Source: Acidobacteriota bacterium (GTDB lineage: Bacteria > Acidobacteriota > Terriglobia > Bryobacterales > Bryobacteraceae). From it: 64,000 bases of DNA. Made by a program: the position numbers and the translations under genes. The stretch covers positions 62,001 to 126,000 of the forward strand of contig JAFKEE010000031.1 in the NCBI GenBank assembly GCA_017307505.1. The letters are read 5' to 3'. Positions 19,323 through 24,292 of this stretch are shown here, piece after piece. The number at the start of each line of letters is the position of its first letter. Within the stretch, counting starts at the first letter, position 1. A model generated the notes under the pieces. The model worked only from the letters and a program-made list of their open reading frames with translations, searched no databases and was not told where the DNA came from.

Positions 19323-20678
19323 TTGCGCGTCGTTCTCGTCTCCACCTATGAACTCGGCCGCCAGCCTTTCGGCCTATCCTCCGCTGCTGCGTGGCTGCGG
19401 GCGCGCGGGCACGAAGTCACCTGTGCCGACCTGGCTGTCGGCCTTGTGCCGGCCAAGGCAATCCGCGAAGCCGATTCCATTGCCTTCCACCTTCCCATGC
19501 ACACTGCCACCCGCATGGCTCTGCCGGTGCTCGATCGCGTGCGCGAACTCAACCCGGCTGCCAGACTCGTGGCGTTCGGCCTCTATGCTCCCCTGAACGA
19601 GCAGTACCTGCGCCAGTTGGGCGTCCATCACCTTATCGGCGGCGAGTTCGAGACCGCTCTTGTAGAAGCCGTCGAGGGCCGCGATGCCGGACCTCTCATT
19701 CAGTTGGACCGACAGCCGTTCACCGTGCCCGACCGATCCTTCCTGCCGGGGCTCGACCGCTATGCCCACCTGCACATCCACGGCGAGCGCCGCACCGTGG
19801 GCTATACCGAGGCCAGCCGTGGTTGCAAGCACCTCTGCCGGCATTGCCCCGTAGTCCCCGTCTACAACGGTGTCTTCCGCGTCGTGCCCGCGGAGATCGT
19901 GCTGGAAGACATCCGCCGCCAGGTGCGCGCAGGAGCCCAACACATCACCTTCGGCGATCCGGATTTCCTCAACGGCCCTGGTCACGCGTTGCGGATTGTG
20001 GAGGCCCTGCACCGGGAGAATCCGGAGCTGACGTATGACGCCACCATCAAGGTGGAGCACCTGCTCAAACACCGCGAATTCCTGCCAGTCCTGGCCCGCA
20101 CCGGTTGTCTGTTCATCACCACCGCGGTGGAGTCGACAGAGGACCTCGTGCTGCAGAAACTGGAAAAAGGCCATTCCCGGGCGGGCTTCCTGGCTGCCCG
20201 GAATCTGCTTCGGGAAGCCGGGTTGCATCTCAACCCCACCTTTGTGCCGTTCACACCGTGGACGACGCGGGAAGGTTACTGCGACATGCTGCAGGTCCTG
20301 CTGGAAACGGGACTGGCGAGCAGCGTCGCTCCGATTCAACTCGCCTTGCGCCTGCTGATCCCGGCACACTCGCTGGTTCTGGAACTGCCGGAAGTGCAGC
20401 CGTTACTGGACGGCTTTGATCCCGCCGGCCTGCTCCATCGCTGGCATCATCCGGATCCGGCCATAGACGAACTGGCGCGCCGCGTCTTCGATCTGGTAGC
20501 CACTCGCCAGAAGGCTGCCGATCCACCGCACGAAATCTTCCGGCAGATCTGGCAGTTGGTCCACGGCGCCGCGCCGCCGGAGAATTTCGACCTCCTCCCG
20601 CGTGCCGCGGTGCCCTATCTCGACGAGCCCTGGTACTGTTGAGCGGAGCCCACTGAAGAGCAGGTTGCTCTTCTCTAA
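19323..20678 (+). CDS. Radical SAM selenoprotein of the CUAEP-tail type (TGA at 20640-20642 read as selenocysteine)
   Basis: The protein has 451 residues if the in-frame TGA is read as selenocysteine, or 439 if it is a stop. Residues 1-120 resemble a B12-binding-like Rossmann domain without a DxHxxG motif. C168, C172 and C175 form the CxxxCxxC radical SAM cluster (SRGCKHLCRHCP). The frame then runs ...LDEPWYC, TGA, GCG GAG CCC, giving Cys-Sec-Ala-Glu-Pro, followed by TEEQVALL and TAA at 20676-20678. This matches the tail after which NCBI names the CUAEP/CCAEP-tail radical SAM (seleno)protein family (recalled, not searched). A SECIS-like hairpin lies at 20655-20673. The start is TTG at 19323 with an AGGCGG site; a nearby ATG at 19304 is out of frame. 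The reaction catalysed is unknown. Confidence 0.88.
20655..20673 (+). promoter_or_regulatory. Bacterial SECIS-like hairpin for selenocysteine insertion
   Basis: GAAGAGC (20655-20661) pairs perfectly with GCTCTTC (20667-20673) around AGGTT, and the flanking A-T can close the loop to GGT. The GG lies 20 bases after the TGA. In E. coli fdhF the corresponding SECIS has GC-AGGUCU-GC with the GG 18 bases after UGA. The element is inside the coding extension, as expected for bacterial SECIS read by SelB. Confidence 0.75.
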
Positions 20679-21280
20679 TCCCTGGCGCTTCCTGCCGGTG
20701 CAGCCGTTAGTCCGGAACCAAACTGACCCGGCTTCGTCGCCGGGTTGACCATGAAAACGCCGCTTGGCGATGTGCAGGATGAAAAAGTTGTGTAGCCGGC
20801 CACGCCTAAATTAACGAATGGATTGCCGAGTAGCGCCGAGAAGTCTCCGCTCCGTATCCCCGCGAGCAGATTCGCGCTCTGCGCGGCGGTAAAGACTGGC
20901 GCAAGCTTCATCGCCTCCTCCAGCGCCGTCAACTTCACTTTCTGCGACTCCGTCAATAACGCCACATTGCTCTTCCGCAGTTCGTCGCCCGCCTTGCTGA
21001 TGTCCCGGCAGATCAGCTCGATCTCCATATATCGCACGCCCAGAGCGCTGGGGTCGATGGGATCCTTGCTGGTTTCCTCGCTGATCTCCTCCTGTACCTG
21101 CCAGATTCGGGCATTCTTTTGAGCGACCAGTTCGGTATAGCTGCTATTGTTCTTCGAGATCTGTTGCGCCTGTGAGTTGGTCAGACCAAGGTAGGTGATC
21201 AGCGTTTCCGGCAGCCTCCATGTCAGCGACTGCGCCTGTACCGGGAGCAAGGCCAAAAATACACAGAAAAGACCCTTCAT
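20675..21280 (-). CDS. Spy/CpxP-like periplasmic LTxxQ-motif protein
   Basis: A 201-residue protein with a signal peptide (MKGLFCVFLALLPVQAQ) and a helical body containing two LTxxQ-type motifs (LGLTNSQAQQI and LLTESQKVKLTALEEAM). These mark the Spy/CpxP fold of envelope-stress chaperones. The C-terminal third is low-complexity (SCTSPSGVFM..., Gly/Ala-rich) and unlike Spy. I use ATG at 21280 because it opens the signal peptide; the frame is open further upstream without conserved sequence. Its end overlaps the selenoprotein extension by four bases in convergent orientation. The function is a guess from the fold. Confidence 0.7.
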   Translation of the reverse strand: MKGLFCVFLALLPVQAQSLTWRLPETLITYLGLTNSQAQQISKNNSSYTELVAQKNARIWQVQEEISEETSKDPIDPSALGVRYMEIELICRDISKAGDELRKSNVALLTESQKVKLTALEEAMKLAPVFTAAQSANLLAGIRSGDFSALLGNPFVNLGVAGYTTFSSCTSPSGVFMVNPATKPGQFGSGLTAAPAGSARD

Positions 21281-21402
21281 GGGACCACAATAACGCACAG
21301 AGGTTGAAAAGGCGATGGCGCTAAATGCGATTTTTCCGCAGCGCGCGAAAAGCGGCCGCGCATCGCTGCCGGAGGCCTTGCACCGTGCACCGCCCGCCGC
21401 TG

Positions 21403-22488
21403 CTATGCCTGATCCCGCATCTCCAGAATGGCGGAAACCAGCTTCTCCGCATGGGGGAGTTTCCTGGGAATCAGCATCATATCCGTCCAGAATCCAGGCG
21501 GCTGATCCGCATTGGTCACTCCGGTCACCGCATCCGTCACCAGGACACGCGGCCCCACGCAATGCTGTTTGCAGTCGATCACCCAATTGGTTTTCAACAG
21601 CTCCGTGAGCACCTGCACCGGATCGCAGTAGGTGCGCAGAGCCCAGGGTGTGAACTCAAACAACGTCGTCACCAGACGGTCCTGCCTGAGGGCTTCCGCT
21701 CCCTGCAATACCTTCCAGTCATGTCCCTGGGTGTCAATCTTCAGGACAAGATGCTCGGAGATTCCATGCTTTGCGCAGTAGGTGTCCAGCTTGACGGTCC
21801 GGATCACTTCGCTGCGCCACTCCGTGGCTACGTCGCGGATCGAAATCCGATTGTTGACGCTGTTGCCCAACTCCGCCAGCATCAGCGCCAGACCGTCGTA
21901 GTTGCTCACAGCCAGAACCTCGTGCCGGACGAGGGACTCCAGGCCATTCAATTCCAGATTGTATGGCAGCAGCGACTTGTATATGCCCGGCTCAAAAGCC
22001 ACCAGGCGATTCTGCCGCCCGGCCATCCGCACCAACCGCCCCGCATCGATGGCCAGGGTTCCGACATTGGCCCCGACATCGACAAACGCGAAAGGCAGGT
22101 CGTGCGCCCAGTAGTGGTCGAACACACAGGAGAAGATCGTCTTCGGAGCGACCGTTGGGGTCCGCCGATACTCTTCCGCCAGACTGGCCGTCATTTCGAG
22201 ATTCTTCCGGGCGTCGCCCGGCAGGAATCCATAGGTCTCGTCGTCGACGTAGTAGAACGCCAGGCGCCCTTCATGTTCCGTGAGATCAATCCGGAAACAC
22301 GCCGTGGCCAGCGTGGCTGCCTGCTTCGCTTGCGCCTCCAGCTTCTCCAAACGCTGCAGTATGTCCTCGCTCACAGCTTCCTTCACTGGTTCTGAACCCC
22401 CTCCGAGTAGTGCCGCCCATATCCGCCGCAGGCCCGACTCGTTGCCCGGCATATCAAGCCGCCTGCCCCGGTTTCGGCAGGATCTCAC
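21403..22488 (-). CDS. FkbM family SAM-dependent methyltransferase
   Basis: A 361-residue protein (349 if the ATG at 22452 is used instead of GTG at 22488; both have a purine-rich site). An N-terminal helical region of about 60 residues precedes the class I methyltransferase core. SAM motif I is FVDVGANVGTLAI, the acidic end of strand 2 is LVAFEPG, and the FkbM-typical late motif is LVLKIDTQGHDWKVLQGAE. FkbM enzymes O-methylate sugars or polyketides. The gene is divergent from the ATP-grasp gene. Substrate unknown. Confidence 0.87.
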   Translation of the reverse strand: MRSCRNRGRRLDMPGNESGLRRIWAALLGGGSEPVKEAVSEDILQRLEKLEAQAKQAATLATACFRIDLTEHEGRLAFYYVDDETYGFLPGDARKNLEMTASLAEEYRRTPTVAPKTIFSCVFDHYWAHDLPFAFVDVGANVGTLAIDAGRLVRMAGRQNRLVAFEPGIYKSLLPYNLELNGLESLVRHEVLAVSNYDGLALMLAELGNSVNNRISIRDVATEWRSEVIRTVKLDTYCAKHGISEHLVLKIDTQGHDWKVLQGAEALRQDRLVTTLFEFTPWALRTYCDPVQVLTELLKTNWVIDCKQHCVGPRVLVTDAVTGVTNADQPPGFWTDMMLIPRKLPHAEKLVSAILEMRDQA

Positions 22489-22644: not shown

Positions 22645-23910
22645 ATGAGAATCCTCATCGTCGCCTCGAAACTCGGCTACCAGACGCGGATCTTTGCCGA
22701 AGCCGCCAGCAGAATCGGGCTGGAGCCCGTTCTGGCCACGGATCGCTGCGGATCGCTCGACGATCCCTGGGGTGACCACGCTTTCCCTTTGAAATTCCAC
22801 AAACCGGCCGACTCCGCCATGCGCCTCGCGCGCGAGATGCCAGGCCTGGCGGGTGTGGTCGCCGTGGGCGATTTGCCGGCCGTGGCGGCTGCCCACATCG
22901 CGGCCCGTCTGGCCCTGCCCTTCCATCCTCCCCAGGCCGTGGAAGCAGCCGGCAATAAGTACCTCGCCCGCGAACGCTTCGCCGCGGCCGGACTGCCCGT
23001 GCCTGCCTTTTTCCGCGTGCCGCTTGACGCCGATCCGGCGGAGGTCTGCCGTCGTGCCCCCTGGCCTTGTGTACTGAAACCCCTTGGGCTCTCCGGCAGC
23101 CGCGGCGTCATTCGAGCCGACAACCCCGCCGAGTTCACGGCCGCCTTCGAGAGAATCCGTACGCTGTTGAACGCGCCCGAGATGCTGCGGCACCGCCATC
23201 CCGCGCTTGGCTACATTCAGGTGGAAGAGTATATTCCTGGCCGCGAGTTCGCCCTGGAAGGGCTCATGACACAGGGTGTACTCCGCACGCTGGCGATCTT
23301 CGACAAGCCGGACCCACTGGAAGGCCCCTTCTTTGAGGAGACACTCTACGTCACACCCTCCCGGCAATCGCCCGAAGTACAGGCCGCAATGCACACGGCG
23401 ATCCAGCGCGCTGCCACGGCCTTGGGTCTCACCGATGGCCCCGTCCATTCGGAGTTGCGCTGGAACGACCGTGGAGCCTGGGTGCTGGAAGTCGCGGCTC
23501 GCCCCATTGGCGGGCTGTGCGCCCGCGTTCTGACCTTCAATGGAGGAACGCCGCTGGAGGAGGTGATCCTGCGTCACGCCGTGGGGCAGTCCGTGCACGA
23601 ACTCAGGCTCGACGGCCCGGCCTCTGGCGTGATGATGATTCCGATCCCGCGCAATGGCCTGTACGAAGGCTGTACCGGTATGGACGAGGCTCTGGCGGTG
23701 GAGGGAATCGACGGAGTGGAGGTTACCGCGCAGCCAGGACAGCGGTTTCAGCAGTTGCCGGAGGGAAGCAGCTACCTGGGATTTCTTTTTGCGAAGGGGC
23801 CAGGGCCGGCGGAAGTCGAAACCTCACTCCGCCAGGCCCACGGCTGCCTGCAATTCCAGTTCGCGACGGCTCTGCCGGTGATGGCAACGCCGCGGCGTTC
23901 AGCTCTTTGA
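22645..23910 (+). CDS. ATP-grasp enzyme, L-amino-acid ligase-like
   Basis: A 421-residue cytoplasmic enzyme with three ATP-grasp parts. The N-terminal Rossmann-like domain is MRILIVASKLGYQTR. The central lid begins NKYLARERFAAAGLPVP with VLKPLGLSGSRGV as the ATP loop. The catalytic part has VEEYIPGREFALEG and WVLEVAARPIGGL. The C-terminal region after about 320 (GVMMIPIPRNGLYEG) resembles the extra domain of L-amino-acid ligases (BacD/LAL type), which join carboxylates to amines using ATP. The ATG at 22645 has a GGAGGGAG site; the frame extends upstream but without conserved sequence. Its 3' end overlaps the yggX-like gene by 12 bases. Confidence 0.85.
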   Translation: MRILIVASKLGYQTRIFAEAASRIGLEPVLATDRCGSLDDPWGDHAFPLKFHKPADSAMRLAREMPGLAGVVAVGDLPAVAAAHIAARLALPFHPPQAVEAAGNKYLARERFAAAGLPVPAFFRVPLDADPAEVCRRAPWPCVLKPLGLSGSRGVIRADNPAEFTAAFERIRTLLNAPEMLRHRHPALGYIQVEEYIPGREFALEGLMTQGVLRTLAIFDKPDPLEGPFFEETLYVTPSRQSPEVQAAMHTAIQRAATALGLTDGPVHSELRWNDRGAWVLEVAARPIGGLCARVLTFNGGTPLEEVILRHAVGQSVHELRLDGPASGVMMIPIPRNGLYEGCTGMDEALAVEGIDGVEVTAQPGQRFQQLPEGSSYLGFLFAKGPGPAEVETSLRQAHGCLQFQFATALPVMATPRRSAL

Positions 23911-24225
23911 TTTCTGAGGGGTGAAATCCGGCGGAAGCTGCGCGCCTTCACCGAAGAAGTACTGCTCCATCTGGGCCAACAGGAAGTCCTGCGCTTCCTT
24001 GGTGCCCAGGTTCAGACGGTACTCGTTCATGAGCATCTTCATGTGCTCTACCCACATCCGCCAGGCTTCTTTCGAGACGTTCTCGTAGATCCGCTGGCCG
24101 AGCGGATGCCCGTCGAACGGCACCTCGTCCAGGCCAACCATCTGTTTCCCGAATTTCACGCACATCACGGTGCGCTTACCGGTCAAATCTTCTTGTCTCG
24201 GGGGCATCGAACCGCCGCATCCCAT
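23899..24225 (-). CDS. Fe(II)-trafficking/oxidative damage protection protein, YggX family
   Basis: A 108-residue protein matching YggX along its length: TVMCVKFGKQ with the conserved Cys, then LGQRIYENVSKEAWRMWVEHMKMLMNEYRLN and a C-terminal FFGEGAQLPPDF. YggX limits iron-dependent oxidative damage to Fe-S proteins in the cytoplasm. The ATG at 24225 gives an N-terminal extension of about 18 residues beyond the enteric protein and follows an AGGAG site nine bases upstream. The frame is open further upstream without family similarity. Confidence 0.87.
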   Translation of the reverse strand: MGCGGSMPPRQEDLTGKRTVMCVKFGKQMVGLDEVPFDGHPLGQRIYENVSKEAWRMWVEHMKMLMNEYRLNLGTKEAQDFLLAQMEQYFFGEGAQLPPDFTPQKSKS

Positions 24226-24292
24226 ATCGAAAGTCTCCTGTGATCTCAGGATAACCCAGCGGGGCGGCACCGGCACCTTATGTTCTGTCCAT

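Follow-up and report, generated by a model that had tools for sequence, protein, structure and literature searches.

A CUAEP-tail radical SAM selenoprotein gene in an acidobacterial genome and the ATP-grasp partner that accompanies it in the phylum

The DNA analysed here (a 64-kb stretch, called the window throughout) belongs to an Acidobacteriota assembly of 9.39 Mb in 75 contigs, and carries a radical SAM gene with an in-frame TGA together with a gene for an enzyme of the ATP-grasp class. The features of both genes are given below; counts over 81 loci cover the window and the best 80 of 441 relatives of the radical SAM gene.

19323..20678, plus strand: CUAEP-tail radical SAM selenoprotein gene, with a TTG start, an in-frame TGA at 20640-20642 and a TAA stop at 20676-20678
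19824..19847, plus strand: radical SAM cluster motif, Cys168-x3-Cys172-x2-Cys175, with Cys in 81/81 loci
20106..20108, plus strand: Cys262 of the radical SAM protein, invariant in 81/81 loci
20637..20642, plus strand: Cys439-Sec440 pair, replaced by Cys-Cys in 14/80 relatives (best 80 of 441)
20655..20673, plus strand: SECIS-like hairpin GAAGAGC-AGGUU-GCUCUUC, within the coding tail, beginning 12 nt past the UGA
22645..23910, plus strand: partner ATP-grasp enzyme of the L-amino-acid (dipeptide) ligase kind; the ORF is open from TTG 22594, and ATG 22645 was chosen by alignment
22747..22749, plus strand: invariant Cys of the ATP-grasp partner (TDRC), 37/37
23068..23070, plus strand: invariant Cys of the ATP-grasp partner (PCVLKP), 37/37
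23518..23520, plus strand: invariant Cys of the ATP-grasp partner (GGLC), 37/37

Without read-through, the ORF that starts at 19323 is complete at 439 amino acids. Reading past the TGA gives WYC-U-AEPTEEQVALL before the TAA, and a product of 451 amino acids with Sec at position 440; start, TGA and stop lie exactly where an earlier, sequence-only reading had placed them. The read-through protein matched NCBIfam NF040546, the equivalog for CUAEP/CCAEP-tail radical SAM (seleno)proteins, with 645.4 bits against a cut-off of 500 and over positions 1-467 of the 468 in the profile, and it has the C-terminal C-[U/C]-A-E-P signature of that family. The likeness is whole-length and includes the tail motif and the alternation of Sec with Cys; we found no difference. 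The family name given in the sequence-only reading was thus the right one. The selenoprotein family is already curated and named; the window gene, as a further member of it, is not novel in itself. The printed description of NF040546, in the part available, names neither substrate nor partner.

A contig scan found 441 relatives of the radical SAM protein, of which the best 80 were examined; the query carried Cys in place of Sec, so that the tail pattern favored TGC or TGT genes over TGA genes. The nearest named loci were mostly from Bryobacterales and other Acidobacteria. In all of the best 80 loci the codon was followed by AEP, the codon itself being TGA in 66 (CUAEP) and TGC in 14 (CCAEP), which is the pattern of a bacterial selenoprotein: an in-frame UGA with cysteine homologues at the same site. 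Homologues lacking the AEP tail after their stop codon, which would have spoken against the selenocysteine reading, did not appear among these 80. Locus L049, titled as another group, reads PWYCUAEP. In a sample drawn from genomes of the phylum (40 loci in 39 genomes, window copy included), 37 loci had the AEP tail, 27 of them with TGA and 10 with TGC; at the other three (L122, L133 and L164, from two genomes) the match ended before the tail and none was seen. Across 396 genomes of the phylum (taken to be Acidobacteriota on the strength of those nearest named loci), the gene was over the cut-off in 61, with TGA as tail codon in 50, TGC in 10 and the codon unseen in one (G188). The TGA was recognized by stop listing in 46 of the 50 (three of which show TAG as well), by sequence in G301, G355 and G001, and by a second fragment in G128.

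Bacterial SECIS elements are located just 3′ of the UGA codon, and the hairpin at 20655-20673, with a stem of 7 bp and the loop AGGUU, lies at such a position. Its pairing was compared with that of synonymous shuffles, which keep the amino acids, in 14 TGC rows and 66 TGA rows (65 loci plus the window, with L029 omitted as too short). TGA rows formed on average 5.79 of the seven pairs, compared with 3.84 (sd 0.09) over 1000 shuffles. With the loop allowed to be 4 or 5 nt long, an unbroken stem of at least 6 pairs occurred in 52 of the 66, whereas the shuffles averaged 0.9 such rows and never exceeded 5; in the registers tried, 11 of the 66 had a stem shorter than 5 pairs. None of the 14 TGC rows reached a stem of even 5 pairs. 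Because of this contrast with the synonymous shuffles, the hairpin can be said to be under selection in the TGA genes and not in the TGC genes. A scan of the 64-kb window with Rfam at gathering thresholds gave no match, and promoter and terminator scans of the window gave nothing exceeding shuffles.

The sequence-only reading had placed the selenocysteine genes elsewhere in the genome, and all four are there, outside the window: a tRNA-Sec (70.9 bits with Rfam, anticodon TCA by ARAGORN) and, each above its cut-off, selA (494 bits), selB (357 bits) and selD (349 bits). A tRNA-Ser likewise passes the Rfam tRNA-Sec cut-off, at 47.4 bits; the Rfam score alone is therefore not specific, and the ARAGORN call matters. 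ARAGORN found no tRNA genes in the 64-kb window. selA was above the cut-off in 50/50 TGA-form genomes versus 5/10 CCAEP genomes (Fisher p 5e-5). It was also above the cut-off in 10 of 19 chosen genomes without the radical SAM gene, so that Sec use alone is no predictor of the gene. The selD gene of the same genome (contig 3, 161903-162808) has one in-frame TGA and probably encodes a selenoprotein too.

An ordinary stop is the default reading of a TGA that completes a 439-aa ORF, and the folding energy of the single sequence after it is unremarkable (z -0.61), but a true stop followed by a chance or decayed AEP extension retains next to no probability, given the AEP tails throughout the best 80 of 441 relatives, the replacement of TGA by TGC in 14 of them, a hairpin kept by synonymous choice in TGA genes only, and the presence of the Sec genes; chance read-through is rejected on the tails and the hairpin test together. 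The UGA at 20640-20642 is very probably decoded as selenocysteine, assisted by the hairpin and by the Sec machinery whose genes lie outside the window, and on this central point the sequence-only reading is supported.

The protein scored above the cut-off for Pfam Radical_SAM. The Pfam B12-binding domain reached 27.6 bits versus a cut-off of 32.1, and there is no DxHxxG, the motif of cobalamin-binding radical SAM enzymes, in the window protein; although its fold is B12-like, this radical SAM enzyme lacks the cobalamin motif. Its invariant cysteines are the three cluster ligands, Cys262 and the tail pair, the last located by motif. A predicted model, computed from 42 sequences, had a mean pLDDT of 90.4; the tail was modelled less surely (pLDDT 64-78), and hence the model gives no placement of the tail beside the cluster. 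The closest solved fold was that of AprD4 (6fd2; TM 0.71), a radical SAM diol dehydratase from which the protein differs by an identity of 18% and by a score of only 31 bits with the NCBIfam AprD4 model.

Among the characterised relatives found, the closest by sequence comparison is ArsL. The ArsL model NF040542 was the second NCBIfam match, at 262.7 bits; this is under its cut-off of 450, and the tail is CUAEP instead of RCCLKC, so the protein is not itself an ArsL. The two are about 29-33% identical over 76-85% of the protein, share the CX3CX2C motif and have a C-terminal Cys pair, the three translated ArsL proteins all ending in RCCLKC. They differ in the tail motif, in the extra Cys262 (Val or Leu at this position in the three aligned ArsL proteins) and in the near-absence of ars genes around the CUAEP loci. 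According to the available portion of PMC8552651, arsL is required for making hydroxyarsinothricin, and the reaction proposed for ArsL is transfer of the 3-amino-3-carboxypropyl group from SAM to As(III), with arsenite as proposed substrate. Later ArsL enzymology is that of Yao et al. 2024, as cited in the available portions of PMC12159101 and PMC11048331.

Of 20 records returned by a search of a plasmid collection, 15 are annotated as having an RCCLKC tail, one as arsL and one as CUAEP, and the remaining three are further radical SAM genes. Six of the 20 plasmid regions were viewed, five of which are ArsL-type clusters, and an ATP-grasp gene was seen in four of these five (Priestia, Alicyclobacillus, Klebsiella and Pantoea, each having arsR or arsM close to that gene), while none was found in the viewed region of the P. 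amygdali ArsL cluster. Besides arsM and a transporter, the viewed ArsL clusters (L136-L138, L150, L151) often contain genes for a GTP-binding protein, which in L137 is CobW-like but under the cut-off, and for an aquaporin.

The ATP-grasp protein of the window, encoded at 22645-23910, contains the Pfam domains ATP-grasp_4 and LAL_C2. No NCBIfam family was over its cut-off, the first match being PRK02186 (argininosuccinate lyase, 111 bits), with BacD (37 bits) and DdaF (35 bits) also among the matches. By profile, its nearest solved structures are the L-amino-acid ligase BL00235 (3vot; 217 bits) and, as the next ligase, the alanine-anticapsin ligase BacD (3vmm; about 85 bits). The predicted model of the partner had a mean pLDDT of 90.0, and its best fold match was again 3vot (TM 0.76-0.82). 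With an ATP-grasp domain, LAL_C2 and the L-amino-acid ligase fold, the partner has the features of an L-amino-acid ligase; from its sequence matches and modelled fold it would probably form a peptide or amide bond. It is only 24-26% identical to BL00235 in the fold alignment, and 3vot lacks its three invariant cysteines, having, as aligned, Ala at the TDRC site, Leu at the PCVLKP site and Ser at the GGLC site. The ATP-grasp proteins of the four ArsL clusters have no Cys at the three sites either, one of them being gapped at TDRC, and for two ArsL clusters the identity to the window partner is just 23-25%, over part of the length.

Clustering of the ORFs of at least 90 aa around the 81 loci (window and best 80 of 441 relatives) yielded one large same-strand family besides the radical SAM gene, that of the ATP-grasp gene, at 37 of the 81. 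In 24 of the 37 it starts no more than 52 nt from where the radical SAM ORF ends, the TGA being taken as the end in TGA genes. The ATP-grasp gene was unseen at the other 44 loci; downstream DNA extends for 5 kb or more at 29 of these, and tight linkage is therefore not universal. In the window itself 2 kb separates the pair, and two genes on the opposite strand occupy the interval. Of these two ORFs (20675-22488, minus strand), one encodes an FkbM-type methyltransferase; the other matched nothing in Pfam at E 0.01. Convergent to the ATP-grasp gene lies a gene for a YggX-type Fe(2+) trafficking protein (23899-24276, minus strand). YggX (25/81 loci) and a quinolinate synthase-like gene named by eye (16/81 loci) were considered as partners and set aside; over the window and the best 80 of 441 relatives, both look like local synteny.

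A profile built from 20 of the 37 ATP-grasp proteins was searched in the 396 genomes, with E up to 1e-40, and gave 68 matches. Where the radical SAM gene was over the cut-off, 60 of 61 genomes gave a match; among the remaining genomes the figure was 8 of 335 (Fisher p about 6e-61, which, like the value that follows, is too small, the genomes being related); the single miss, G335, is 74% complete. Three of the eight (G080, G213 and G367) have split or cut radical SAM copies, and counting these and G099 as positive gives 63/65 versus 5/331 (Fisher p about 2e-64), with a ligase but no detected radical SAM gene in G017, G057, G226, G278 and, weakly (240 bits), G325. The radical SAM and ATP-grasp surveys scored up to four candidates per genome; a smaller search, with up to 22 per genome, gave the same 60/61, and 0/19 for the chosen controls. 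Of the 60 pairs, 35 were separated by up to 300 nt, measured between profile matches, and 42 by up to 2 kb; another pair was 30 kb apart, and in 17 the two genes were on different contigs. Among the 35 closest pairs the ligase gene was downstream on the same strand in 25, convergent in 6, upstream on the same strand in 2 and divergent in 2, and linkage that survives rearrangement in this way argues for joint function. From co-occurrence and linkage we conclude with high confidence that the radical SAM enzyme and the ATP-grasp ligase act in one pathway.

Five further genomes were reached through loci titled as other groups (L049, L077, L082, L085) or through a distant family (L066). ATP-grasp matches were strong for L049, L077 and L085 (350-657 bits), weak for L066 (136 bits) and almost absent for L082 (53 bits). 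A Thermomicrobium plasmid gave no ATP-grasp match, the search covering the plasmid sequence alone.

The explanation that we favor overall, by a modest preference, combines the selenoprotein, ArsL-like chemistry and the ligase in one pathway. The UGA at 20640-20642 would be read as Sec with the help of the hairpin 12 nt downstream; the radical SAM enzyme would then, by its kinship with ArsL, cleave SAM to give a 3-amino-3-carboxypropyl radical; this would be joined to a soft, thiol-seeking atom on Cys439-Sec440, perhaps with Cys262; and the resulting amino acid would be passed to the ligase at 22645-23910, which would make a peptide or amide bond with expenditure of ATP. The parts of this proposal differ in strength. 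A two-enzyme route to an unusual, perhaps metalloid, amino acid followed by peptide bond formation seems somewhat more probable than not, its substrate being a matter of inference. ArsL-like aminocarboxypropyl chemistry, suggested by kinship, has about an even chance, and the suggestion, likewise by analogy, that the atom would be a metalloid such as arsenic falls rather short of that. Cys439-Sec440, perhaps with Cys262, may hold the soft atom as the cysteines of RCCLKC may do in ArsL.

Evidence on arsenic points both ways. The genome encodes ArsN1 family A (ArsN1a), the arsinothricin-resistance acetyltransferase, at 219 bits against a cut-off of 170. The gene lies on a different contig from the CUAEP gene (contig 19, 127618-128082), and no arsenic gene was seen by eye in its neighborhood. 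With up to nine candidates scored per genome, 14 of the 396 genomes, among them the present one, had ArsN1a over the cut-off; the CUAEP gene occurs in 12 of these (split in one, G213) and not in the other 2 (p 1e-8), and three of five more genomes under the ArsN1a cut-off also have the CUAEP gene. Eight of the 12 genomes fall in a single family (f25), so that the co-occurrence is clustered; in this family ArsN1a was present in 8/8 TGA-form genomes versus 0/5 CCAEP genomes (p 8e-4), a pattern that may reflect a few lineages only. For the surroundings of the CUAEP gene, ORFs of at least 90 aa lying up to 6 kb to each side of the 81 loci (window and best 80 of 441), many loci being shorter, were compared with three ATP-grasp proteins and with 17 other proteins taken from ArsL clusters and ars operons. 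The sole match to the 17 was an ArsC, at one locus (L020); by contrast, all five viewed ArsL clusters hold such genes. With the ArsN1a association for it and the near-absence of ars genes against it, arsenic is a lead and not a result.

That near-absence of ars genes, together with the AprD4-like fold, fits an ordinary organic substrate such as a sugar or an amino acid, the product of which the ligase would couple with no metalloid involved. However, ArsL is much closer than AprD4 in sequence, as the NCBIfam scores show, and the ArsN1a association also speaks against it; we regard an organic substrate as a substantial but minority possibility.

The sequence-only reading took the Cys-Sec tail for a redox-active pair next to the cluster; in that case the tail would serve to reduce or protect the enzyme, and would have no part in binding the substrate atom. 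According to the available portion of PMC9312934, a redox function is assumed for most selenoprotein families of prokaryotes, and the Cys-Cys pair that stands for Cys-Sec in 14 of the best 80 of 441 loci agrees with such a role. ArsL, on the other hand, for which arsenite is the proposed substrate (PMC8552651, in the portion available), also ends in a Cys pair, and the extra invariant cysteines in both the radical SAM enzyme and the ligase hint, from the alignments, at a thiol-seeking ligand. A purely redox tail is a possibility that we rate as rather doubtful; given the kinship with ArsL, a role for the tail in binding the substrate atom would be at least as likely as a redox role.

Peptides are the substrates of some radical SAM enzymes that have a B12-like domain, and a RiPP pathway acting on a small precursor peptide from a neighboring gene was considered for this reason. 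It is improbable: TIGR03975, a model of such enzymes, gave only 13.6 bits, and among 2134 small ORFs in 47 loci there was no convincing precursor, the largest conserved family (13 loci) overlying yggX and the others, traced in part, occurring at 8 loci or fewer.

Returning to the favored pathway, its most specific form would be a selenium-dependent route in soil Acidobacteriota, in which a bond between carbon and a metalloid (arsenic or a different soft element) is made from the aminocarboxypropyl group of SAM with the atom on the Cys-Sec pair and Cys262, the dedicated three-thiol ligase yields a peptide that is the Trojan-horse form of an arsinothricin-like antimetabolite, and ArsN1a gives self-protection in some lineages. 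As a whole this is speculative, and we think it unlikely in all its details.

In the literature searched, the coverage of which was incomplete so that the family has perhaps been described already, no paper named CUAEP or NF040546. Within the same incomplete coverage, nothing joined arsinothricin with ATP-grasp, and there was nothing combining radical SAM, ATP-grasp, arsenic and dipeptide, or selenoprotein, radical SAM, Acidobacteri and selenoproteome. The strings NF040546, AEP, UAE and arsinothricin are absent from the available part of a 2026 selenoproteome review (PMC13188914). The present analysis adds a ligase partner of which we found no published account, along with the patterns of cysteines and the association with ArsN1a. 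The near-obligate ligase in the phylum, the kinship with ArsL and the family-specific cysteines in both proteins provide a functional lead for the family. If the proposal is true, many uncultured soil bacteria spend selenium on an unusual, perhaps organometalloid, amino acid.

Correct annotation of the window gene is by itself a small gain, the family having been named by NCBI. In a Thermomicrobium roseum plasmid (NC_011961.1; L135:5935-7371), the CUAEP gene is annotated to end at the TGA (ESWFC); the codons GCG GAG CCG follow, so that the record is without the Sec-AEP tail.
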